A stretch of 47,480 nucleotides of DNA from an uncultured Bacteroidota bacterium (GTDB lineage: Bacteria > Bacteroidota > Bacteroidia > Chitinophagales > Saprospiraceae). Below, piece after piece: positions 31,445 to 45,963 of the stretch; positions within the stretch are counted from its first letter, which is position 1, and every line of letters begins with the position of its first letter. Location: NCBI GenBank assembly GCA_902609095.1, contig CACLQQ010000011.1:1-47480 (forward strand). Reading direction: 5' to 3'. The notes under the pieces are model-generated. The model saw only the letters and a list, made by a program, of their open reading frames with translations. It was not told the origin of the DNA and did not search any database. Position numbers and translations under genes: made by a program.

Positions 31445-32030
31445 ATGAGTAGTAATATTAGAATCAATCGAATTTGTCCAGCAATGTACAAGGGAATCTA
31501 TAGCCCGTACAACGGTTACTAAATACTATTTGGACAAATGCAGTAAGTCAGCCTACAAAGCCCGTAAACGAGCCAAAAATCTGAAACAGTCAAACGCTGA
31601 AACCACACGAATAAAACAACTCCCTATTGAGCAACTGAAAGCCAAAGAGTTTTTAAGCATAAGTGAGTTATGCCAGTTAGTTGGAAATAGTAGGTGTACC
31701 ATTTACCGATTGATTGAACAAGGTGATCTGAAAAAAATAAAAGTTGGAAGCCACACTATAATTAAACGTGCAGCACTAAACAAGCTATTGAGCAATAAAG
31801 AACCTGAAAAACCTGAAATATCAAATCAGCAAATGAAAGACCTCAAAGATTGGAAACAGAAAAGAGTGTTTAATATGAATGACTGTTACACCTTAACAGA
31901 GATACAGGATAAATATGGAGTTTCTGAAAGCACAGTACGGCAGTTAATCAAAAGAAACAGCATACCAAAAATGAAAAAGAGTTGGTGTGCCTGTGTACCG
32001 AAACAGATTATTGATGAATTATTGACGTAA
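31445..32030 (+). pseudogene. Mobile-island HTH protein, frameshifted near the N-terminus
   Basis: Island proteins of this kind begin MSSNIRI, then a small Zn-ribbon (CxxC) and ARTTVTKY...C. Here MSSNIRINRIC (31445 on) loses the ribbon in a frameshifted stretch and the frame resumes as ARTTVTKYYLDKCSKSAYKA. Two excisionase-like helix-turn-helix units follow: FLSISELCQLVGNSRCTIYR (about 31650-31710) and YTLTEIQDKYGVSESTVRQL (about 31890-31950). The open 166-residue part from 31530 could still be made. The protein was probably a regulator or directionality factor for the neighbouring integrase. Only the 5' end shows damage. Confidence 0.65.
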
Positions 32031-32872
32031 AAAAAGTTTTTTCCGCGGTTCACATTTTTCACGGTTTTCACAAATAGCATTAAAGACAATGGCAACAAAT
32101 GTCAGTTTAAGGCAAAAGAAAATAAGCAAGGGGCGTAAAAGCCTGTTCCTTGATTTTTACCCACCAATACCACACCCCAAAACTGGCAAACACACAGGCA
32201 GGGAGTTTTTAGGGTTTTACATTTATGAGAAAGCTAAAACAACAATTGACAAACAGCATAATACTGAAACCTTGAAAATAGGCCAAAGCATACGCCAAAA
32301 GCGTGAAAACTTCCTTAATGAGCCTGGGATATACAGCCAATACGAACAGGAACAACTGAGGCTAAAGGAATTAGGTGAACAATGTTTTGTTGGATACTTC
32401 ACAAAGTTAGCAACCAAACGCAAAGCCAGTAACCACAATAATTGGGTTTCAACACTCAATTATCTTGACACTTTCACAAATGGCAGTTTAAAGTTTGCTA
32501 ACCTCGACCACAAGTTTTAAGAGGATTTTAAAGATTACCTACTTACTACCAAAAGCAATAAGAGTAACAAGACAACCCTTTCACAAAATTCAGCCGTTTC
32601 GTACTTCAACAAGGTAAAAGCTGCACTAAAACAAGCCTATAAAGACGGTATTTTGCAATACGACCTAAACGCTAAAGTAAAACCTATAAAAGCAGCCGAA
32701 ACAAGGCGTGAATATTTAACCCTTGACGAACCTCAATAAACTTGTAAAAACCGATTGTAATAACCCTTTAATGAAACGTTCAGCCTCCTTCTCGGCACTT
32801 ACAGGGTTGAGATTTTATATGTAAATCATTATCTGTATATTAACAGTACAATTGAACTTAATCCAATTTAAA

Positions 32873-33397
32873 ATGAGAAAAACACTATTACTTTTTGGAA
32901 TCGTATTAACTATTCTTTCTTGTGCTCAACAAAAGGATAAATCTTCAACAACTGTAAGTAACAAGGACGATAAAACTATGGCAGTTGCAAAACTTATGAA
33001 AGGATATGTTGACAACAATTTTGATGGAAGTATACTTTCTGAAGGATGTATTGTTCGATTCAACAACATTGAATTAAACAGAGAAGATTTTATAGGAATG
33101 TCGCAATTCCACCACAGTATGTTTGATGATATTACTTTTCCTGATGGCTGGATTGAGACGATCAGTTACCATGGAGAAAACTGGAAAGAAGGGAGCTATC
33201 AGAGCGAAGATGGAGAAACATGGACAAACCAATGGACCAATTGGACTGCTACGTCAAAGATTTCGAAAGAGACTCATACGAATCGAACCCATTTTAATTA
33301 CCATTGGGAGAACGATAAAATTGTTGAGGTCAATGCTCTTTTTTCAGACCTTTGGTATGATAAGGAAGTTAAGTTATTCATGGAAAACCAGAAATAA
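32873..33397 (+). CDS. SnoaL/NTF2-like lipoprotein inside the dead integrase
   Basis: This is a 174-residue intact protein. The start MRKTLLLFGI was chosen seven codons inside the longest frame because it begins a lipoprotein signal (TILSC, Cys17). The body has a SnoaL/NTF2-like cone-fold pattern (VAKLMKGYVDNNFD ... IVRFNNIEL ... HFNYHWENDKIVEVNALF). No catalytic residues can be assigned. The gene lies where the integrase coding region is interrupted, between its first Arg box and the C-terminal domain, in the same orientation. It is one of the few intact genes in the island and is probably a later insertion or passenger. Confidence 0.65.
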   Translation: MRKTLLLFGIVLTILSCAQQKDKSSTTVSNKDDKTMAVAKLMKGYVDNNFDGSILSEGCIVRFNNIELNREDFIGMSQFHHSMFDDITFPDGWIETISYHGENWKEGSYQSEDGETWTNQWTNWTATSKISKETHTNRTHFNYHWENDKIVEVNALFSDLWYDKEVKLFMENQK

Positions 33398-33414
33398 CAG
33401 AATATTAATACCCC

Positions 33415-33460
33415 ATCTAATTGGAGGCTCCTTGGTTTGAGCCCATGAAGGGAAGCAACA
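33415..33460 (+). other. Possible tRNA 3'-end relic
   Basis: The stretch ggaggctccttggtttgagcc ends in a segment like a T-arm (ttggtttgagcccatgaagg) followed by gaagcaa, just before a terminator-like hairpin. It resembles the 3' end and variable loop of a class II tRNA, which is a frequent integrase target, but the T-loop deviates from the usual TTCRA and no 5' half is present. It may mark a recombination scar at the right edge of the insertion in the integrase. Confidence 0.25.
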
Positions 33461-33485
33461 GCCCATCAAAGATGATAGGTTTTTT
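33461..33485 (+). terminator. Terminator-like hairpin within the integrase interruption
   Basis: ccatca-aagatgat-agg forms an imperfect stem (one bulge) followed by six T residues. It lies 64 bp beyond the stop of the SnoaL-like lipoprotein gene and could end that transcript. Confidence 0.4.
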
Positions 33486-33837
33486 ATGCCTTGTATTTAC
33501 TGGGCTCGCATCAAGTCAACCTCTTCACAATTTCAGAAAGTTAAGCTATATAAGATACGGAATAAACCTGTATTTGAAGAGCTTAAATATTCAGCCTACC
33601 ACAACATACATTTATTTTAATGGATTGAAGCAGCAGGAATAACAAAAGATATTACGTTCCACTGTTTTCGCAACCTTACAACTATTCAACGGGACGGACA
33701 TTTACACCGTTTCCAAAATGTTGGGACATAAAGACCTAAAAATAACGCAGGTTTATGCCAGAATAGTTGATGAAGTAAAACGAACAGCAGCCTATACATA
33801 AAATTGGATATGTAACCACTTAAAGCATAAAAGACAA

Positions 33838-34675
33838 ATGAATTACTTAGAAATTGTTTTGGAGGGATATTTTAATGAGAACAACATGAAGTATTTAAAC
33901 AACTATTTCTTCAGAGAATTTAAAAAGGCGAAAAATGAGCTTTTGTTTGAAGCAAATGAATTTTTTAATGGTTGTTTGAACGTGATTGATGGTTGGGAAA
34001 AATATTTCTACGACAAAAACTTTGAACGTAGTAGGGAATTATGTTTAATGCTTGAGGGAGCAGAAAACGGAGCACTTATATTCGGAAATTTGCAGGGTGA
34101 AAGCATTAAGCAACAAAGGCAGGAAACAATAGAGTATTGCATATAGGAACTTAAAAGACGTTCGCCCTGATGGAATAGGAGATATAACTTTTACCGAGCA
34201 TTTACATACATTGACAAATGGTCGTATTGGACACAATCTGGCATACAATGAAGTCTTAAAAATAAAATCATGAATCCTTAAAGCATTTGAGAAAGCTCAA
34301 CTCCATAGTGAAGCCTTACCACCTCAACAGGAAGTAATAATATTTGAATTTGTAAACAACTTTGATAATGTAGATTATTAATTGGTTTATACCCATTTTA
34401 AAACAGGATTACTTAAGAATGATATGCTTACAGAAGATGAATTACAAAAGTTCTTAATAGTTGCTTTTCAAGATAAAACTGACGCTATAAATAAGTTTAA
34501 TCATGAAAACATTGAATCAAAAGACAAGGTTATGAAAGTCTTTTATCAATATTCTAAAGATATAGCAGGGAAACCATACGGCAAACAAAAAGAATATGCT
34601 GGGTTATTGGGTAACTATTTTAAAGGATATAAAACCAATACAGTAGGCAGTAATTTTAGTAAGTCCGTTTACTAA
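33838..34675 (+). pseudogene. Island hypothetical protein, frameshifted
   Basis: Three consecutive pieces make one protein of about 280 residues often found beside Bacteroidota island integrases: MNYLEIVLEGYFNENN (33838 on), then after a frameshift near 34140 RNLKDVRPDGIGDITFTEHL and NGRIGHNLAYNEVL, then after a stop FEKAQLHSEALPP ... FEFVNNFDNVDY. After a TAA at about 34380 comes THFKTGLLKNDMLTEDELQK and the end YFKGYKTNTVGSNFSKSVY. No enzymatic motif is visible and the function of the family is unknown to me. Position and content fit a conserved island accessory gene. Confidence 0.6.
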
Positions 34676-34776
34676 ACCTTTACGAATTTCACGAAAACAT
34701 AACTAAGGTTACGAATCTATTTAATAAGGGGTTAAGCCTAAATACCATTGAAAATAAATAACAAAAAACTTTTGTA

Positions 34777-35147
34777 ATTGAACATAATTTAATATTATAT
34801 CTATTTGTTCCCGAAAAACTCATAATTGACATTTCGGAGAGAGTTACTGCAAATATTCTTAAAACAGTACAGAACAACAACCCAACCACCGAACAGTATG
34901 AACAACTCTTAACCATTCAAGAAGCTACACAATTTCTAAACCTAACAGCACCCTCCATTTACAGCAAGGTAAGTAAATGCGAATTGACCGTAACGAAACG
35001 GAATAAGAGACTGTACTTTTACAGTACCGAACTTATGGTGTACGTTAAAGAGGGCCGTAAAAATCAAACGCTCAAATAGATGCTGAGGCTCAAGCGTATT
35101 TGTCTAACAATAAAAAGGGGGACCAATATGAAAACCTCATACAACAC
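34777..35147 (+). pseudogene. Excisionase-type HTH protein, start lost and frameshifted
   Basis: The reading frame is LILYLFVPEKLIIDISERVT, then EQYEQLLTIQEATQFLNLTA, IYSKVSKCELTVTKRNKRLY, YSTELMVYVKEGRK. It is the MerR/Xis-like HTH protein common in Bacteroidota islands (LLTxxEAxxFL...APSIYSKVSK). The expected ATG seems to be ATT at 34777. A frameshift near 35065 moves the normal end (DAEAQAYLSNNKKG) into another frame, which closes at 35147. The 3' end overlaps the next gene's start at 35128. It was probably a recombination directionality factor. Confidence 0.65.
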
Positions 35148-35331
35148 ACAGATTGAGCAAGTAGCCAATTTACTTAACGACTTTAAGCCACGTTCTTATA
35201 ATATGGCTGCAAAAGAATTGGGACTAAGTAATGAAAGTGTATTAAGATGGCTTTGCAACCTTGTTGAGTATGAAGTATTACAAGTTATAGGTAAAGGTAC
35301 TTACGAAATAACTGGTAAACAAGCCAATTAA
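35128..35331 (+). CDS. Small winged-helix DNA-binding protein
   Basis: This is a 67-residue frame starting MKTSYNTQIEQVANLL, 16 codons inside a longer open frame. This ATG is preceded by aaaagggggacc, a plausible ribosome site. The product has a winged-helix look: NMAAKELGLSNESVLRWLC as recognition helix, then YEVLQVIGKGTYEIT as wing. It lies between the broken excisionase and the broken DUF3987 gene and is probably an island transcription regulator. It shows no lesion. Confidence 0.55.
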   Translation: MKTSYNTQIEQVANLLNDFKPRSYNMAAKELGLSNESVLRWLCNLVEYEVLQVIGKGTYEITGKQAN

Positions 35332-35357
35332 TATAGTGCTATTGCTTGGACTAAAAA

Positions 35358-36830
35358 ATGGCTGGAGTAATGGAAAATCAAAACAACAACCCTTTGTATA
35401 AAAGACATAGAAAAGATACTGCAAATAAGTCCAAAGCAAAAGAACTAAGCCCACACTTTGAGGACTTGCAGCAGCCTGGAACTTATACTAAACATATAGA
35501 GGAGCTTCAGATACAAATAGACAAAGATTACAATCCATTTCCTATAGATATATTTCCTAAAACAGTACAAGAAATAATTACATCAACAAATGAATGTTTA
35601 AATTTTCCTTTTGACTTTACCAGTTCTTCAATGTTGTATGCTGTTGCTGTTGCAATAGGGAATACCAATAATATTGAGATAAAGAGCGGTTGGCAAGAAA
35701 GCTGTTGCATGTTCTTATCCATTGTAGGACGTGCTGGGACGAATAAAAGTCAACCCCTTAGCTTTGGGCTACAACCAATTACTCAAAATGATGATCTGCA
35801 GTATAAAGAGTATGAGAAGAAAAATATAGAATTTGTTAGTTTCTCAGACCTTTCCAAAGCCGAAAGAAAAAACAGGAAATCGGCAATCTTACCAAACCTG
35901 TTTGGAAACAATCTTTAGTAAATGACTTTACCCCAGAGGCCCTTGCAGATGTACATAAATTCAATAAAAGAGGTATTGGCGTATATGTAGACGAGTTGGC
36001 CACATGGTTCAAAAATTTCAACCGTTATACCAAAGGTAGTGAAGAACAATTTTGGTTAAGTGTGTGGAGTCGTAAAGGAATGCGGATAAATCGAAAAACA
36101 AGTGAGCTCACAAACATACCAATGCCTTTCATTCCTGTAATTAGCACCATACAGCCAGGTATTCTGAAAGACTTAGCAGACAATTAGAACTGAAAACGGA
36201 TTTTTAGATAGGTTGCTATTTGCGTATCCAAATAATTTAAAGAAAGAGTATTGGAGCGAAGAGGAATTAGATCCTGAAATATCTAAGAATTAGCATACCA
36301 TTATTTCACGGCTTATGGATTTACCACTACTTCAAGATAGAACATGCAATCCAAAGCCCGAAGTATTGAGATTTACTTCAGAAGCAAAACAACTTTTATT
36401 TGATTGGCAAAGGAAACTAACAGACGAAAGCAATAAGTCGGAAAATGAGGCAATGTGCGGCATGAACGCCAAAATGGAAATGTACGCTGCACGATTTGCA
36501 CTCTTATTTCAAATGATACGATATGCCTGTGGAGAAGATTATAAACAAGCTGTTAAAGCTGAGGCAATAAAAGGGGCTTTAAAGTTGGTTCAATACTTCA
36601 AAAGAACAGCTATTAAAGTGCATAACATTGTAAGCAATGCAAGTCCATTGGATAAGCTGCGTAGCGACAAACAGAACCTTTACAATGATTTACCCGAAAA
36701 TTTTACAACAAGAGAGGGAATCAAGATTGCCGAAAGTTTAGGAATATCTGAGTGGATCTTTAAGTATTTCACAACGAATAGTGACTTATTTATCAATCCC
36801 AAAAGAGGTGAATATGAAAAACGGATTTGA
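35358..36830 (+). pseudogene. DUF3987 ATPase-like protein of the island, degraded
   Basis: The first frame (35358-35918) has a Walker-A-like IVGRAGTNKSQPL. A frameshift near 35880 gives LPKPVWKQSLVNDFTPEAL and VYVDELATWFKNFNRYTKG (Walker-B region). The next piece (to about 36187) ends GILKDLADN. After another shift RTENGFLDRLLFAYPNNLKK follows, with a TAG at about 36291, where Trp is usual, before HTIISRLMDLPL. The last piece runs LRFTSEAKQLLFDW to GEYEKRI at 36830. DUF3987 proteins are primase/helicase-like replication proteins of Bacteroidota integrative elements. The lesions (two frameshifts, one stop) leave no full-length product. Confidence 0.8.
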
Positions 36831-36949
36831 TAAATATGCACATTGTATTTATTGCGTTAATTGCATTAATTGCACTTACAAAACAAGCTCAAATACAACT
36901 TGTACAGTAAATGCAACTTGTGCAAGGTGCATAACAGAAATTTGAGAAA

Positions 36950-38069
36950 ATGAATACAGGACACAGATATAAATTGGCCAGCAACAAAGTACTAAAGCTG
37001 GATTGACCTCATTGTGGAGCAAAAAACACTAGCAACAGTACGTTGATATTGAGACAAATGAGGCATTTCCAAATCAATACGGCAGGTGTGATAATGAAGG
37101 TAAATGTGGTAAATGGCACGATCCCTACAAAGACGGTTATGCTAAAGCCATTTGGGAGCAGGAAAAAGGTAATAAAACAGATGGGAAGTTACAGCCATCA
37201 AAACCAAAAAAGAATCCTGTAACCAAGCCCAAAAAAGCGTTTATTCCCTTTGAGATATTCAGCCGCACCCGTACAGGATATGAAGAGAAAACCTTTTACA
37301 GCGTGTTCATTTCCCTTTTAAAGCACAGGGGACATTGAAAAGCTGATTTCATTGTACCATTTGGGTACAATACCCAAAACTGGGGCGGTATGCTTTCCTT
37401 TCATAGATAAGAACGGAAATGTAAATGCAGTACAGGAAAAGATATTTAACCACCTCAACCACACCGATAAATCAAAGAAATACCATACCAGTTGGATCCA
37501 TTCTCGACTAACTTGCAGCAAATACAGAAATAAGCCTTTACCCAAATGGTTAGAAGCCTACAATAAAAACGAAACAATGGTTTCCTGTTTGTTTGGTGAA
37601 CACCTTTTAAGTAAATACCCATACAATCCCGTAGCTTTAGTTGAGGCTCCTAAAAAGACTATTTATGGCACGTTGAATTTTGGTTTCCCTGAAACAGCCT
37701 ACAAACTTACTTTGGTTAGCAGTATACAATTTAAGCAGCTTAACACTTGAGAAATGCAAAGCCTTGAAAGGAAGAAATGTTTATTTGTTTCCCGACCTTT
37801 CAAAAGATAGCAAAGCCTTTGAGTCATGGGGTAATCAGGCAGCTGAAATACAAAACCAATTGCATGGTACATACTTTCACATTTCTGATTTATTGGAGCG
37901 ATATGCCACAGAGCAGGATAAAGAAGAAGGGAAAGACATTACAGACTATCTAATAAAATTAGATTGGCGACAATTCAGAAGGCAGGACACTCCAAATACT
38001 GTGCAGTCCGAAACAGTTTCAACTATAACCAGTGAAAAAAGTGAAAAAAGTGAAAAAATAACTCCATAA
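36950..38069 (+). pseudogene. DUF6371/Toprim-like island protein, degraded
   Basis: The start is MNTGHRYKLASNKVLKLD. A TGA then stands where the first Cys of the zinc finger (CPHCG) is expected, and a frameshift leads to QQYVDIETNEAFPNQYGRCD, EGKCGKWHDPYKDGYAK and NPVTKPKKAFIPFEIFSR. Another break precedes YHLGTIPKTGAVCFPFIDKN (37352-37750), which contains ALVEAPKKTIYG, and a shift near 37735 leads to the last piece, ALKGRNVYLFPDLSKDSKAF ... KDITDYLIKLDWRQF. This is the CHC2-like plus Toprim-like protein that pairs with DUF3987 in replication of Bacteroidota islands. The 3' end has a 9-bp triplicate (agtgaaaaa, 38031-38058). Confidence 0.75.
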
Positions 38070-38312: not shown

Positions 38313-38780
38313 GCCCCCCCTACATCTCGCCTCAGAATGCTATGAGATATATATTCTTATAATTCCTGTCCACAGATAGGTAAACCATTATTTATGAGGT
38401 GCTTGTTGAATTTTGGCTTACGTAGTCTATCAGACTCTACAGCAAAGTGATTGTTCTGCTGAGATGGGTTGATTTATGTGGTGGTTGAGTAGTAATCCTT
38501 ATGGTAGAAGATAGTGTGATAGTTTTTGATCCGATTAGCCAAATATGGTAGAGTGATTAGAGATAGGACACAGAAGTATCTGGTGTTAAATGAATGTAGA
38601 CCATATGTAGAGTTAGCGTAGAAGGGCTCATGATTGAATTTTTGATTACAGCTGCGTGTGGAGAGTTGAGACTCAAACAATAAATTTAAAGATATAAAAA
38701 TGAATAAGACATGCGCATTATCAATGTATTTCTATCTGTGATCGTGCTAAGTGTCGGATTAATAGGACAGCAATCGGGCT
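38313..38780 (+). repeat. About 465-bp repeat, copy R1, upstream of FISUMP copy 1
   Basis: From ccccctacatctcgcc through tggtagaagatagtg and gagttagcgtag to the signal-peptide codons of the gene that starts at 38711, this block is closely similar to 42117-42580. It includes 390 bp of non-coding leader and about 70 bp of coding sequence. Similarity by eye is about 85%. A shorter piece of the same block begins at 43384. Confidence 0.85.
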
Positions 38781-39521
38781 TAGAAGTATCCGGCGAGATA
38801 AAGGCGGACTTAATCGATGCCAACTCAGTGATCATCAAAAATGTTGCAGATCCCGTAGAGACCCAGGATGCGGCGACGAAGGGGTTTATTGACGATTTAT
38901 TACTAAATTTTGGTATTTCATTAGATTCAGCAGGAATTAACGGACTTTTGGCCTTATACTATAGTCTATCAGAATTATTGGATGAGGGAGCGAGTCCTTT
39001 AACAATGTATACAGCAGGAGTTCCAATAGACTCATTATATGGTCAGACCTACGCAGGAGGGCTGATATTCTATTTAGATACATTAAACAATTATTTTTTC
39101 GAAGGCTTAGTAGCGGCATCTGAGGACCAATCTACAGGTGGAGCATGGATAACTAAAGGCTCTACATACTCGACATCAAATGGTAATACAAATACAGCAA
39201 TAGGCGGTAATGCTGCAAATACTACAGCTATGATGAATTAAGCTGGCTACACTGGAGTAGCTGCACAGGTATGTTTAGACTATGATATTGTGGAAGGAGG
39301 TGTTACCTATGATGATTGGTTTTTGCCCTCTATAGATGAATTAAATGAAATGTATATAAACCTAAAGTCAAACGGCTTTGGTGGTTTTTCTACAAAAGCC
39401 TATTGGAGTTCTACAGAGAGCAGCAGCCTACACCCGTGGGCACAAAGTTTCAACATAAGCCTCAATGGCAGACAACCTTAAGATCAACGATAACAATGTT
39501 CGTGCAGTTCGGGCTTTTTAA
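38711..39521 (+). pseudogene. FISUMP/DUF1566 surface protein, copy 1 (stop and frameshift)
   Basis: The signal peptide is MRIINVFLSVIVLSVGLIGQ, followed by LEVSGEIKADLIDANSVIIK and ADPVETQDAATKGFIDDLL, a phage-tail-like start. A DUF1566/FISUMP region follows: TYAGGLIFYLDTLNNYFFEG, GAWITKGSTYSTS, TAA at 39239-39241 (Gln expected; copy 2 has Gln), then CLDYDIVEGGVTYDDWFLPS, IDELNEMY and YWSSTESS. A frameshift near 39478 puts the usual ending (VRAVRAF) in another frame, closing at 39521. Such proteins are secreted, C-type-lectin-like surface proteins in Bacteroidota. Its N-terminal half matches copy 3 and its C-terminal half matches copy 2. Confidence 0.85.
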
Positions 39522-39529
39522 CTATTAGT

Positions 39530-39873
39530 ACCGCGATAGTCGTCGATATACGTAAGATACTTTCATATCTACTATGACCCAGTTGCCGCTGCATCTCCTT
39601 GGCGGAAAAGCCCTTCCTCGACATGGTCATTAAACACCTCGCTAAATACTATTTACACATAGGAAGTTTGCTATGAGAAAAAACTGTCCCATTTCGCAAA
39701 CAAGTACGGAAACTTCATGACTTACATTACAACTTTCCTTTAAGCCAATAATATTCGGTATAGCCGCATTTCTTGCAATTCACACCCTATGATTGTCGGC
39801 GAAGCCTAAAATGCTCCTTATAGGATGCCTGATCTGAAAAAGTTTCCATAAATCTCAAAATGTTCTTACTCAT
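39530..39873 (-). pseudogene. IS1595-family transposase, N-terminal relic
   Basis: In one frame from the ATG at 39871-39873 the sequence reads MSKNILRFMETFSDQASYKE, then after TAG GVNCKKCGYTEYYWLKGKL, TAA (Gln expected), CKS, TGA (Cys expected), SFRTCLRNGTVFSHSKLPMC, TAG (Trp expected), YLARCLMTMSRKGFSAKEMQ and RQLGHSRYE. The Zn-ribbon (CKKC ... CKSC) and the GTVFxxSKLP and KKGFSA.EMQRQLGH segments are those of ISXO2/IS1595 transposases. Only the first third remains, the DDE part is lost, and four in-frame stops without indels are present. Inverted repeats are not visible. Confidence 0.8.
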
Positions 39874-40005
39874 TTACTTTTAAGCCAACATCATCACCTC
39901 CGTGCAAGCAATCTGCATCTAGGTAATAATACGTGCAATCATATTTTAGTTTAAATAGTTTGACAATCTTATACTTTAGGTAAATTATATAAAATTCCTT
40001 CATAA

Positions 40006-40944
40006 ATGAGTATACTTCTAAAATATTTGAGTCCATTATTCCTCGCTGTTTGCTTAATTCTATCTTGTTCAAAAGAGTATGGGCCAGGCGAAGAAACAGA
40101 AGTGCGAACCAACCAAAATAATTTAACGGAATCGACGTATTTAAGAATTACCAAGTCTTGGTTTCAGGAACCTCAGGGATGGCTATACCCTATGAATATT
40201 GCAGTTCCCAGTCAAAATGAACCCTCAAATGGGTTTCCAATTCTCATTTTACTTCACGAAAATGGTGGTAGTGGATCGCGTATGTTGAACGAGTGGAAGA
40301 CGCTCGTAACGGATCATATTTTAGTTGCTCCTACTGGATATCGAAAAAGCTGGAACATTTCAGATGAGGCAAGTGAAGCTCCTGACGTGGAAATGGTGAG
40401 TGATTTAATAAAAAGCCTCTCTGAATTTGAAAATGTGGATTTTCAGCGTATACGTATAATTGGGTTTTCGAATGGAGCGGCTTTGGCCAACCGTATTTTT
40501 ATCGAAAATAAAAACGAGGCCATCGATCGAATTGGGGCTGTAGTTTCTCAGCTATCAAAGGCGCAATACCGCAACGATTCATTTTATGCACCAAGCGGAG
40601 ACACTGGAGGTTCGGATGTCCATGATGGTTATAACATTAGTACCGTTCCAATACAAGGAAGGGCATACCTCAGTATTTGTAATGAAAACGATCCTATGAT
40701 TCCCTATTTTGGTGGAGCCTCGGTAGGAGTAGAGTTTTTACCTGCTAAAGAGGCTATATATCATATTGCCAGAAGTCAAGGCCACGACGCTCCTTATGAG
40801 GAAAGTGATGGAAACCAACTCCAAAACTCATTAACCTACGAATACAGCTACCTCGATAAGAATGTGGTGCACCTTCGAGGCTTTGCTTATCACGGAATGA
40901 GTGACACTGCTTTAAATTATCTGATCAACTTTATTACTAACTAA
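40006..40944 (+). CDS. Esterase/PHB-depolymerase-like lipoprotein
   Basis: This is an intact 312-residue lipoprotein (LILSC, Cys21) of the alpha/beta-hydrolase fold. The oxyanion and nucleophile regions are ILILLHENGGSGSRM (79-93) and IIGFSNGAALANRI (151-164) with Ser155 in GFSNG. An acid, Asp229, lies in CNENDPMIPYFGG and a histidine, His296, in GFAYHGMSD. The order matches LpqC-type polyhydroxybutyrate depolymerases and feruloyl-esterase-like enzymes, so the product is an outer-membrane or surface ester hydrolase. The substrate is unknown. It lies alone between two dead FISUMP genes. The long non-coding gaps on both sides suggest its own promoter. Confidence 0.8.
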   Translation: MSILLKYLSPLFLAVCLILSCSKEYGPGEETEVRTNQNNLTESTYLRITKSWFQEPQGWLYPMNIAVPSQNEPSNGFPILILLHENGGSGSRMLNEWKTLVTDHILVAPTGYRKSWNISDEASEAPDVEMVSDLIKSLSEFENVDFQRIRIIGFSNGAALANRIFIENKNEAIDRIGAVVSQLSKAQYRNDSFYAPSGDTGGSDVHDGYNISTVPIQGRAYLSICNENDPMIPYFGGASVGVEFLPAKEAIYHIARSQGHDAPYEESDGNQLQNSLTYEYSYLDKNVVHLRGFAYHGMSDTALNYLINFITN

Positions 40945-41200
40945 TTACAAAAGAACTTTTACTTTTTGGCGTTTTATTTGTTAATCTCAATAAAATTATC
41001 TACAATCCTTCTCATCTGGATCATTAATCTTTACAATTATCCGTAACGTTAACTGTTGTTGATTTAATCATTTTTATAACTTATAAAACTGCTTTATTCA
41101 GCTCACGTAGGTTTGTTATTTCTGTCCTTTTGATTGAATAAACAGCAATAAGAAACGATTAGGTAATTAAGTGTACGCTCATTATTTTTATAACCTAAGC

Positions 41201-42003
41201 ATGTAGAAACACCTTTATATTTTCTTAGTTTTAATGTTTCCTGTATTTGTATTTAGTCAAAATGTAGAAGTCGAAGGCGGAATTATAGTAGACTCGATTG
41301 GCGTAAGGTTAGGATTAATCAAGAATATAGTAGACCTCATAGATGTCCAGGATGTGGTTACTAAGGAGTAAATAGAAGAATTATTAGTTGGTTTTGATAT
41401 ATCATTAAGTTCAGTAGGAGTAGAAGGACTTATTGGCCTTAGGACAGAGTATTTCAGACTTTGGCTTCGGGAGCAAGTCCTTTAATAATGAGAATGGCAG
41501 GAGTTCCAACAGACGTATCATATATTAAGACTTACGCAGGTGGGCTGATATTCTATTTAGATACATTAAACACTGATTCATTTAAAGGCTTGTTATCTAC
41601 GCCTTCGGGCCAGTCTACAGGTGTAGCATGGATAACTGGAGGCTCTACAAAATCGACAGTAAATGATAATACAGATATTTCAATGGGTACAGGTTTAGCA
41701 AATACTATAGCTATGATAAATCAAGATAGATATACTGGAGGAGGTGCAAAGGTATGTTTAGACTATGAGATTATGGAAGGAGGTGTTACCTATTCAGATT
41801 GGTTTTTACCCTCAAGAGATGAACTAAATGAAATGTATATAATTCTAAAGTCAAATGGTTATGGCGGTTTTTCTACTGGAAATTATTGGAGTGGAACAGA
41901 GTACGACTACTAGAGGGCGTGGTATCAGATTTTCAGCATTAGCTTCCAGGTAAGTAACCTTAAGTTCGGCAATCTCACTGTTCGTGTAGTTGGGGCTTTT
42001 TAA
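41201..42003 (+). pseudogene. FISUMP/DUF1566 surface protein, copy 2 (four lesions)
   Basis: The ATG at 41201 is followed directly by TAG (codon 2). The frame then encodes a signal peptide, KHLYIFLVLMFPVFVFSQ, and VEVEGGIIVDSIGVRLGLIK. A TAA follows VTKE at about 41370 and a frameshift near 41465 leads to SGASPLIMRMAGVPTDVSYI and TYAGGLIFYLDTLNTDSFKG. The DUF1566 core is GGAKVCLDYEIMEGGVTYSD, WFLPSRDELNEMY. A TAG follows YDY (about 41911). The tail RAWYQIFSISFQVSNLKFGN and VRVVGAF ends at 42003. The N-terminus differs from copies 1 and 3, while the C-terminal domain is very close to copy 1. Confidence 0.8.
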
Positions 42004-42116
42004 CTATTTATCAATTTAATAATTAGTACCGCTAATTACGATGATATAATAAATAAGTTGAGGGCTGTTATCTCATGGCATATGAGATTAACCTGTAGAT
42101 GTTGGAGAAATATAAT

Positions 42117-42580
42117 GCCCCCTACATCTCGCCTTAGAATGCTATGAGATATATATTCTTAGAATCATTACCTACATATAGCTGAACTCTTATTTATGAG
42201 ATTCTTACTTGGATTATGGCTTACGCAGTCTACCAGACTCTATAATAAATTGTTGGTTCCGCTGGTAGGTTGATTTATGAGGTGGTTGAGTAGTAATCCT
42301 TATGGTAGAAGATAGTGCGATAGTTTTTGACATGATTATCTAAATATGGTAGAGTGATTGGAGATAGGACATAGAATTATCTGGTGACAAATGAATGTTG
42401 ACCATATGTAGAGTTAGCGTAGTAGAGCTCATGATTGAATTTTTGATTATAACTGCGTGTAGAGGATTGAGAAGTAAGAAATAAATCTAAAGATATAAAA
42501 ATGAATAAGTCATGCGCATTATCAATGTATATCTATCCGTGATCTTGCTAAGTATCGGATTAAGAGGACAACAATCAGAT
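42117..42580 (+). repeat. About 465-bp repeat, copy R2, upstream of FISUMP copy 3
   Basis: This is the partner of 38313-38780, starting with the same ccccctacatctcgcc and running into the signal-peptide codons of the gene at 42512. It is preceded by a further shared element, agggctgttatctcatggcatatgagat (42061 on), part of which also precedes copy R3. The block is in the same orientation as R1, 3.8 kb away. Confidence 0.85.
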
Positions 42581-43326
42581 TTAGAAGTATCTGGAGGGAT
42601 AAAGGCAGACTCCATCGATGTGAGCTCAGGAATCATCAAGAATGTAGCAGATCCTATATCTGCACAGGATGAGGCAACAAAGGCATATGTAGATTCTCTT
42701 TTTCTGGTATTGGAAAATGAATTAGAAAGCAAAGTACTGGATGTAGACGGGAATGAATACAATACGACTAAGATAGGAGACCAGCAATGGATGGTAGAAA
42801 ATCTACGAACGACAAAGTACAATGACAGAACATCTATTACATTGGTGACGAGTGCTGGAGCATGGGGCGCTCTTACGACACCAGGTTATTATAATTATGA
42901 TAATGAACCAGATGGATATTTAGTTCCGTATGGGGCTTTATATAATTACTATGTTATGGCAGATACGAACAGTCTGAATGTATGTCCTGAAGGATGGCAT
43001 GTTCCCTCAGATACTGAGTGGACAACGCTAACGATCTTCTAAGGAGGGGAGGTGTTGCAGGAGTTAAAATAAAAGAAATAGGAACATTGTATTGGCAAAC
43101 GCCAAATGAAGGAGCAACAAATGAGAGTGGTTTTACAGGGCTTCCGGGCGGCTCCCGTAACGGTGATGGATCGTACAGCGACATTGGCAATAACGGCAGG
43201 TGGTAGGGTTCTACTGAGTCTGTAGGTGGTGCCTGGGAACGAATCCTGTACTATTTCGATGACAGTGTAAACCGGAACGGCAGCGATAAAAGGTTTGGTT
43301 CTTCGGTCCATTGGTTGAGGGATTGA
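42512..43326 (+). pseudogene. FISUMP surface protein, copy 3 (frameshift and stop)
   Basis: The signal peptide is [20 protein letters not shown], then [20 protein letters not shown] and [19 protein letters not shown], as in copy 1. The C-terminal domain is a different member of the family, the true FISUMP type: [29 protein letters not shown] and [20 protein letters not shown] frameshift near 43036 leads to GVKIKEIGTLYWQTPNEGAT, ESGFTGLPGGSRN, then a TAG (43204-43206) where Trp is usual, then GSTESVGGAWERIL and the end SSVHWLRD at 43326. The product would have been a secreted surface protein. Two lesions prevent a complete one. Confidence 0.85.
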
Positions 43327-43846
43327 CAATTTGGCTATTTGACTATTTGATAAAACCGCGAAAGCGGTAGATTTATAATCAATAAGTAGGGGGCTGTTAT
43401 ATCATCGTATATGAGATAAGAGATGTTGGAGTATTATATGTGGCTACCCTCGTCTCAGAATGCATATTGGAATATTCTTATAATTCCTGTTTTCGACCTA
43501 CTTTTCCTTTGTCAAAATTTGTTCTCATAGAGGTAGATGACTGTTTAACTCTATTTCTATAGATTTGAACACATTTGTACCTTTTTTGTACCTCATAATC
43601 ATAACTAATTGATTTACAGTTATAATCACTTTATGTATAGGAAAGTAATCCTTAATTATTACGAGTATTCTAATGTCTCAAGGCATCTAAATAGTTAATC
43701 TAATATCACTCATAGTACTTCGTCACAATACCTTATGGATAGGGTGAATGGCATAACAGCCGAATAATTAAGAAATAATCTTGATCAATAATGATGTAAA
43801 TTCTACAAGATTGTCTTGGTCGTTATTTTAATATTAAACAAATCAT
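43327..43846. other. Gene-free stretch containing a truncated copy (R3) of the repeat
   Basis: From about 43384 to 43490 the words ggggctgttat, tatgagat, gatgttggagtatta, ctcgtctcagaatgc and attcttataattcctg repeat parts of the block found upstream of FISUMP copies 1 and 3, after which similarity ends. A small hairpin with a GAAA tetraloop (accgc-gaaa-gcggt, 43353-43366) lies just after FISUMP copy 3. The rest (43500-43846) is AT-rich with no gene that I can see. Confidence 0.5.
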
Positions 43847-44224
43847 ATGATGAGGTGCTTCAAAAATTTATTTTTACTCACAGGCTTGTGTCTCTTCAAT
43901 GTTACTTTTATTCAATCCGCATCTGCGCATAGAACAGTTAGTGCGAAAGCACTTTCAACTAAAACTTCAATCAAACCATTAAATGCTAAGGCACTGAAGT
44001 TAAATCCTAAGGCTGCAAGAATTTTACAAAGATGGATTGAGGCTAAGCATGTATAATTCTTAGAAACAGGTCACTTTGTACCAATGGCAAATCCTTCAGC
44101 TAATACAGGAGCTAACCTTCCAGGCGGAGGGACTCCAAATAGTTTTTCCAGTGGTACCAATTGCTTCGAAATAGAATGCCCAGATGTATTTGGAGACGAT
44201 GTCGTCTGTTGGGAATGTCATTGA
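43847..44224 (+). pseudogene. Small secreted Cys-rich-tailed protein with an in-frame TAA
   Basis: The ATG at 43847 opens a signal peptide, MRCFKNLFLLTGLCLFNVTF to about residue 26 (SASA). A Lys/Ala-rich segment follows (SAKALSTKTSIKPLNAKALK ... AARILQRWIEAKHV), then TAA at 44054-44056. In the same frame comes FLETGHFVPMANPSANTGAN, then NLPGGGTPNSFSSG, and an end with four cysteines, TNCFEIECPDVFGDDVVCWE-CH, closing with TGA at 44224. The whole 125-codon frame reads as one gene with one nonsense codon. I do not recognise a family. The Cys-rich end could bind metal or form disulfides. A strong terminator follows. Confidence 0.5.
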
Positions 44225-44685: not shown

Positions 44686-45963
44686 GTGAAAAACAACTCG
44701 CTAACATCCCAGGATTCCTCAAGATACAAGCGGTATGTCTTAACCATGCTAACTATAGTATCAGTATTTGCCTTTATTGACAGACAGCTTATCATCATCC
44801 TACAAGAAGCGATCAAGGAAAACCTAGGTCTATTAGATGCCCAATTAGGTTTTGTAAGTGGCTTAGCCTTCTCGATACTATATGTTATCGTAGTGATTCC
44901 AATAGCTCGATTAGCAGATCGACCCAGTCGCAAAAATATCATTACCATATCGCTCTCCATCTGGAGTTTGATAGCTGCATTAACAGGATAGCGGCGAACT
45001 ATATCCGATTAGCCTTAGCGAGAGTCGGAGTAGGTTTGGGAGAAGCAGGAGCTACTCCTGCATCACACTCAATTATTGCAGATTACTTCCCTCAAGAGAA
45101 ACGATCCATAGCCTATGCCATCCATGGATTAGGGGTCTACATCGGACTATTGTTTGGATTTGCCATAGGAAATATACTACAGCAGCTTTATGGCTGGCGC
45201 ACAGCTTTTTATATCATTGGTGTTCCGGGTTTAGTATTCTCTTTGATATTTTATTTCACCGTCAGAGAACCACAACGAGAACATACCCAATATGATGAAG
45301 AAACAGAGGCAACGATGCCTTCTGTACTCGAAGTCTTCCAATTCTTACTTTCTAAAAAGACATTTATCTGCGTAGGAATAGCGGTGATCCTGCACACGTT
45401 CGTAGGTGGTGCCTTTGCAAACTGGATGCCTCCCCTACTTAAGAGTACATGGGATGGGTACTGTAGAAATAGGCTTGTGGCTAGCTTTTGTGATAGGGGT
45501 CTGTGGAGCTATAGGGACCTATGCAGGAGGATACTTAGTTGATCGACTGAGTAAAAAAGATACAAGATGGTATATCTGGTTGCCAGCTATGTCTATTGTT
45601 AAAAGCATTCCTTTTGCCCTCCTACTCTTATTAAGTACGCAGAAGTATGTGACCCTCTGTGCTTATCTCATTCCTAATGTTACCTATGCTATTTTCTTGG
45701 GTCCCACTTACGCCTTAGTTCAATCAATGGCTGGATCTAGAATGCGGGCTACTGCAAGTGCGATTGTTATGATATCTATTGCACTATTTGGGATGGGTCT
45801 TGGACCATATCTTACAGGTATTCTCAGTGATTACTTGACACCGAGCTATGGCGATCATGCAATTCGATGGAGTCTATTTTATATCTCAGGATTTGATCTT
45901 ATTGCAGCCTATTTCTTTTACAGGGCGTCTAAGATTGTTCTTGATGATGTAAAGCCAGAGTAA
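44686..45963 (+). pseudogene. Major facilitator (spinster-like) transporter, two frameshifts
   Basis: The frame starts at a GTG (44686). The first piece has FIDRQLIIILQEAIKENLGL, QLGFVSGLAFSILYVIVVIP, IARLADR, the MFS motif-A region after helix 2. A frameshift after AALTG (near 44990) leads to RLALARVGVGLGEAGATPAS and ADYFPQEKRSIAYAIHGLGV, GLLFGFAIG. A second shift near 45440 leads to GTVEIGLWLAFVIGVCGAIG, TYAGGYLVDRL and the last helices, ending at 45963. Repaired length is about 425 residues, normal for the family. There are no nonsense codons other than those produced by the shifts. The substrate is unknown. Confidence 0.85.

Follow-up and report, generated by a model that had tools for sequence, protein, structure and literature searches.

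Why should three related reading frames, all of them broken, lie beside long repeated non-coding leaders in one stretch of a bacterial genome? The question was raised by a window of 47,480 nucleotides from an uncultured member of the Saprospiraceae, which makes up the entire contig C11 (CACLQQ010000011.1) of assembly GCA_902609095.1 (2.76 Mb, 144 contigs, 58.71% complete). Por_Secre_tail and CHU_C domains likewise suggest a Bacteroidota origin. In an earlier note, the three copies had been taken for FISUMP paralogues, shuffled as surface-protein cassettes by recombination through the leader. The answer favored here, which we consider probable with considerable room for doubt, is that the copies are orphaned, decaying target genes of a diversity-generating retroelement (DGR) and that the leader is a duplicated promoter or 5′ untranslated region (5′-UTR).

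All three window copies are located on the forward strand, and all three were disrupted by stops or frame changes. Copy 1 (38711–39521) comprises a signal peptide, a stalk and an Lcl_C-like head, with an in-frame stop at 39239–39241 and a frame change before its end. Copy 2 (41252–42003) consists of a diverged stalk (41252–41389) containing a stop and an Lcl_C-like head, with a frame change and a stop at 41911–41913. Copy 3 (42512–43326) carries a signal peptide, a stalk and a FISUMP head; its frame shifts around 43042 and is interrupted by a stop at 43204–43206.

As the earlier note had described, copies 1 and 3 have the N-terminus in common (signal peptide and stalk, 71% across 65 amino acids), and copies 1 and 2 the C-terminal domain (repeat families D2, D3 and D5, 78–83%). 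The stalk of copy 2 was a distant form of the copy 1/3 stalk (43% at the amino acid level, E = 3e-7). The designation as FISUMP paralogues applied to copy 3, whose head matched FISUMP (Fib_succ_major, PF09603) with E = 2.8e-20 and 73.8 bits against a cut-off of 33.9; it failed for copies 1 and 2, which gave no match in the PF09603 search and are thus not FISUMP. The copy 2 head matched PF07603 (Lcl_C) weakly (E = 0.22), PDB chain 8q4e at 4e-6 and phrog_4245 at 2.5e-16, and copies 1 and 2 share a remote Lcl_C-like head distinct from FISUMP.

The copies belong to a family dispersed over the genome, with the layout leader, signal peptide, stalk, head and trailer. When signal peptide and stalk were used as the query in tblastn, eight places were found, namely copies 1, 2 and 3 and loci on contigs C83, C111, C13, C48 and C65; a ninth locus, on C30, is an open fragment with a FISUMP tail at the contig end. 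Internal stops or frame changes were present in seven of the nine loci (copies 1–3, C83, C111, C13 and C48), and C65 (L147) halts after the stalk and is headless. The C65 stalk continues into other sequence, and the next frame may be the end of a tyrosine integrase. The stalk weakly resembles phage tail proteins (phrog_1640, E = 3.6e-5 to 2.6e-4). At least two head types occur on this one stalk: the PF09603 head is present in copy 3 and C111, and the C83 head is of another type that Pfam does not clearly identify (E = 0.053 for PF09603).

The observation that bears most directly on the origin of these heads was made at their ends. When copy 3 was compared with C111, a candidate variable region became apparent at 43129–43325 (forward strand), in which third bases were kept and codon positions 1 and 2 changed. 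Over these last 197 nt, 19, 23 and 13 differences fell on codon positions 1, 2 and 3, respectively, compared with 33, 21 and 52 in the upstream head, corresponding to third-position shares of 13/55 and 52/106 (p = 0.002). Of the 33 codons with a change at position 1 or 2, 27 (0.82) kept the third base, as opposed to 22 of 43 in the upstream head and stalk (Fisher p = 0.008). Twenty-two of the 27 retained the same C or T, and a count from the codon list gave eight codons with the first and second bases both changed and the third kept. In the copy 1/copy 2 tail, the third base was kept in 14 of 19 cases, with C or T in 11 of 19 versus 11 of 44 upstream. The signature rests mainly on the one pair copy 3/C111. 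As far as can be judged from codons, the pattern at the head ends points to a diversification mechanism other than the one proposed earlier.

For comparison, FISUMP tails of five relatives served as controls; across 60 pairs, third-base retention averaged 0.30 and reached 0.43 at most, these pairs being mostly more diverged than copy 3/C111, which lowers their retention. Control pairs of similar divergence (0.41–0.59 of codons changed) yielded 0.25–0.41. This final control comprised 22 of 40 fetched loci from five genomes, the other 18 being left out either for failing the tail rule or because their genome retained fewer than two loci; earlier controls under stricter tail rules (7 of 14 G049 loci; 11 of 40 loci, giving 7 pairs) had third-position shares of 0.37–0.42. 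In five real DGR template/variable pairs of relatives, the third base was kept in 45 of 46 cases, and simulated DGR pairs with 5–10% decay per copy gave retention values of 0.90–0.80.

The domains themselves are also of a suitable kind. Passages of PMC4159848 and PMC8143477 name DUF1566 (Lcl_C) and Fib_succ_major (FISUMP) as DGR target domains. PF09603 was found in copy 3 and C111 and PF07603, weakly, in copy 2, with a C-type-lectin-like fold assigned by domain class.

In the preferred reading, the copies are decayed paralogues from this scattered family, which encodes secreted proteins, presumably located at the cell surface, with a short signal peptide, a tail-fibre-like stalk and a C-type-lectin-like head. 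The last approximately 60 head codons would once have been a variable region rewritten by a DGR in trans: a reverse transcriptase (RT) would have copied an adenine-rich template with randomization of the adenines, and the resulting complementary DNA would have replaced the head end, the target perhaps being marked by a tetraloop element 3′ of the head. The leader would have been carried along in gene duplications as promoter/5′-UTR, and recombination between copies would then have yielded mixed combinations of leader, stalk and head. The reading frames are now being lost, and the DGR machinery itself would have been lost or reside on unassembled DNA.

Candidates for the marking element were located. 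A 5-bp hairpin with a GAAA tetraloop lies at 43355–43368 (forward strand), 28 nt beyond the stop of copy 3, and a tetraloop element with a GATA loop, one motif mismatch and an imperfect stem follows copy 1 at 39530–39546 (forward strand). The pattern ACYGCGAWAGYGGTCGA, with at most two mismatches, matched the genome four times, in every case just 3′ of family heads (C83, C111, and copies 1 and 3). It is these positions beside the heads that count as evidence; the number of matches alone does not. The target site of the BPP-1 DGR, as presented in part of PMC3240598, likewise has a GRNA-loop hairpin shortly after the head. A second GAAA-loop hairpin was noted in the window at 43940–43953, 0.6 kb beyond copy 3, with no head adjoining.

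Several results weigh against a retroelement origin. As for the codons, the 14 of 19 retained third bases in the copy 1/copy 2 tail contrast only slightly with 31 of 44 in its own upstream part (position share p = 0.12), and the pairs involving C30 were weaker (17/32 and 21/33), their nucleotide alignment having no third-position deficit. Scarcity of adenine in unchanged columns was dropped as a DGR test, as the controls G023 and G016 showed the same. As for the hairpins, a reversed ACYGCGAWAGYGGTCGA control also gave four matches at up to two mismatches, and a strict GRNA-loop hairpin (at least 5 bp) followed two of six heads, the background being 0.01–0.02 per kb per strand. The stem measures 5 bp here, against 7–10 bp in the account of target-site hairpins in PMC3240598; the distance from the stop is 28 nt for copy 3 and 53 nt for C111, against 4–34 bp past the variable region in that account. 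None of the five DGR loci of relatives had the hairpin.

As for the machinery, RVT_1 (PF00078) gave no match at E ≤ 1 in the organism's own assembly, tblastn with the DGR RT of a relative gave none at E ≤ 10, and blastn searches for templates with the FISUMP, Lcl_C-like and C83-type ends yielded no template candidate at E ≤ 1; at 58.71% completeness, absence of a DGR from the organism cannot be read from these negatives. The template searches returned paralogues, chance-level matches and one conserved-motif match. Matches on C106 and C51 were rejected as templates, being read as a response regulator and a sulfatase-like protein.

The strongest competitor, in our view unlikely though deserving serious attention, is an ordinary paralogous adhesin-like family that was duplicated, recombined and is decaying, with positive selection on the binding face and no retroelement involved. 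It is consistent with the lack of both RT and template in the assembly, with adenine-poor tails in the controls too, and with the occurrence of FISUMP families of 9–17 matches in three genomes (G048, G023 and G049) that gave no RVT_1 match. The third bases speak against it: selection acting on amino acids would not be expected to preserve them, and the controls reached at most 0.43 against 0.82 in copy 3/C111, where the eight codons changed at both positions 1 and 2 nevertheless kept the third base.

RTs are not foreign to the relatives of this organism. Among 60 genomes searched, 23 carry RVT_1. Thirty RT loci were examined out of 41 matches listed; seven of them had the motifs SQ/YMDD, which we take to be a sign of a DGR, and five had an adenine-biased template/variable pair (L073, L079, L083, L084 and L088, from the same order or family). 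Judging by these loci, DGRs that look functional occur within the taxonomic family of this organism. A literature search on DGRs and Saprospiraceae gave no usable result. The window genes look like DGR targets; the genome is not thereby credited with a DGR, nor were the genes filed as one.

Compared with known systems, both similarities and differences were evident. The multi-target DGRs covered by the relevant part of the DiGReF survey (PMC3521204) likewise have duplicated paralogous targets with variable C-terminal ends, usually within a larger family; here, in contrast, RT and template were not found, a single stalk carries at least two head types, and the majority of loci are disrupted. 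The DUF1566/Fib_succ_major targets of gut metagenomes and Bacteroides phages, as described in portions of PMC4159848 and PMC8143477, also place the head C-terminally on a secreted or tail-fibre-like protein. Those targets adjoin an RT and a template, whereas here none was found and the tails were without a match to phage records. The five DGRs of relatives belong to the same order or family, and differ in head type (FGE-sulfatase, as read from translations), in having an adjoining RT and template, and in having no tetraloop hairpin past the variable region.

The leader was the starting point of the earlier note, and its description was borne out. The approximately 395 bp leader of copy 1 together with the signal peptide is repeated at copy 3 (86%), partly on C83, and as leader alone on C6. 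The ungapped portions pair 38316–38404 with 42118–42206 (83%) and 38467–38766 with 42268–42567 (89%); with a single query, 38313–38770 matched 42118–42570 at 86% (E = 6e-150), C83:7938–8198 at 83%, and C6:3–118, at the contig end, at 82%. A single tandem pair therefore does not account for the repeats, since the copies on C83 and C6 exist besides it. The same query recurs 3′ of copy 3 at 43449–43490 (84%, E = 2.5e-5), again as had been noticed, and no leader copy was found upstream of copy 2.

The leader of copy 3 (42058–42511, forward strand) includes a first module of about 60 nt (42058–42117), also present on C6, which is missing from the leader of copy 1 (38313–38710, forward strand). The trailer after copy 3 (43380–43495, forward strand) is akin to this beginning: with a longer query it matched 42050–42190 at 74% over 115 columns (E = 9e-14), and it matched the C30 trailer at 88%. 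Contigs C6 and C30 terminate within leader/trailer repeats, and further copies may for this reason sit in unassembled DNA.

Among 60 relatives, a leader search gave matches in the organism's own genome and one 41-nt match in G023, taken as chance, which falls inside a 393-amino-acid reading frame (L016). Exact patterns of the conserved leader blocks found nothing in genome_contigs or viral_contigs, from which records of the own genome may be excluded. Copy 3 had one relative, at 37% (L148), and none confirmed in viral_contigs; the phage collection gave zero matches to the C111 tail and copy 2.

Leader, stalk and head were found in different combinations among the copies, a pattern which, read from the sequences, supports mosaicism. 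Copies 1 and 3 agreed at 217 of 250 positions in leader and signal peptide compared with 90 of 125 in the stalk (p = 6e-4). For copy 3 and C83 the values were 211/249 and 105/125 (p = 0.88), the copy 3 stalk being closer to C83 than to copy 1. The contrast between copies 1 and 3 could also come from selection on the leader; this cannot explain the mismatch at C111. C111 (L055) shares with C13 (L145) a second leader type unrelated to that of copies 1 and 3, and its stalk is 82% like that of copy 3, both being FISUMP-headed. Since stalk and head of C111 are like those of copy 3 and the leader is different, recombination among copies, as the earlier note had supposed, is supported.

That the leader itself is a functional regulatory RNA or cis-element, selected independently of the genes, we regard as improbable. 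The contrast between leader and stalk in copies 1 and 3 would fit such a role, and so would a 50-nt block (42400–42449) with 48 of 50 positions identical in every pairing of the three leaders compared, together with the very low cytosine content of 38467–38710 (0.086, among the bottom 0.2% when 244-nt windows of both strands are ranked). Folding was divided: the first module of about 120 nt (42056–42180) folded somewhat better than shuffled sequences (z = -1.80, 7 of 200 shuffles as good), as did the C83 trailer (z = -2.15, 7 of 200), but the main block 38467–38710 and its copy 3 counterpart folded no better (z = -0.21 and +0.51). Rfam at gathering thresholds gave no match in the window, copy 3 and C83 lack the leader–stalk contrast, and no convincing promoter emerged, with 17 sigma-70-like sites against 23.5 in shuffles and no instance of the Bacteroidota-type pattern in the leader. 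A cis-acting role may still attach to the first module and the 50-nt block. Former antigenic variation, in which cassettes would enter an expressed locus by recombination at the leader, would suit leaders common to three contigs and the conflicting leader/stalk/head similarities but is highly improbable: copies 1, 3 and C83 all retain a leader and start region of their own, leaders come in two types, every window copy is broken, and no single active site of the kind envisaged before was seen.

DGR-target-like paralogues are a known kind; what is unusual here is the orphaned, decaying state. If the preferred reading is true, hypervariable genes can be recognized after loss of their diversifier by third-base retention alone, and surveys that start from the RT miss such loci; PMC8144416 states in one passage that its own approach would not detect remote targets. 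The window would also illustrate the fate of diversified surface proteins in a decaying lineage. More tentatively, the loci may represent a fossil DGR regulon, in which a single machine in trans served scattered family members that combine one stalk and one leader with several head types of unrelated appearance. Such a regulon would constitute a datable decay series kept after loss of the machine, with targets, hairpins and leader outliving the retroelement, and the conserved 50-nt leader block could be its common control element.

The surroundings of the copies were inspected as well. The region 31530–38069, ending just before the copy 1 leader, contains likely remains of a mobile element, with HTH_17, DUF3987 in two pieces and DUF6371 in two pieces. 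Between copies 1 and 2, an open frame of 312 amino acids (40006–40944) gave weak alpha/beta-hydrolase matches below the cut-off, and a cysteine near its start, on our reading, suggests a lipoprotein. An MFS transporter at 44686–45963 is split over three reading frames, so gene decay is not limited to the cassettes. The MnmE, MoaA-like and sugar-nucleotide genes of the window appear whole.

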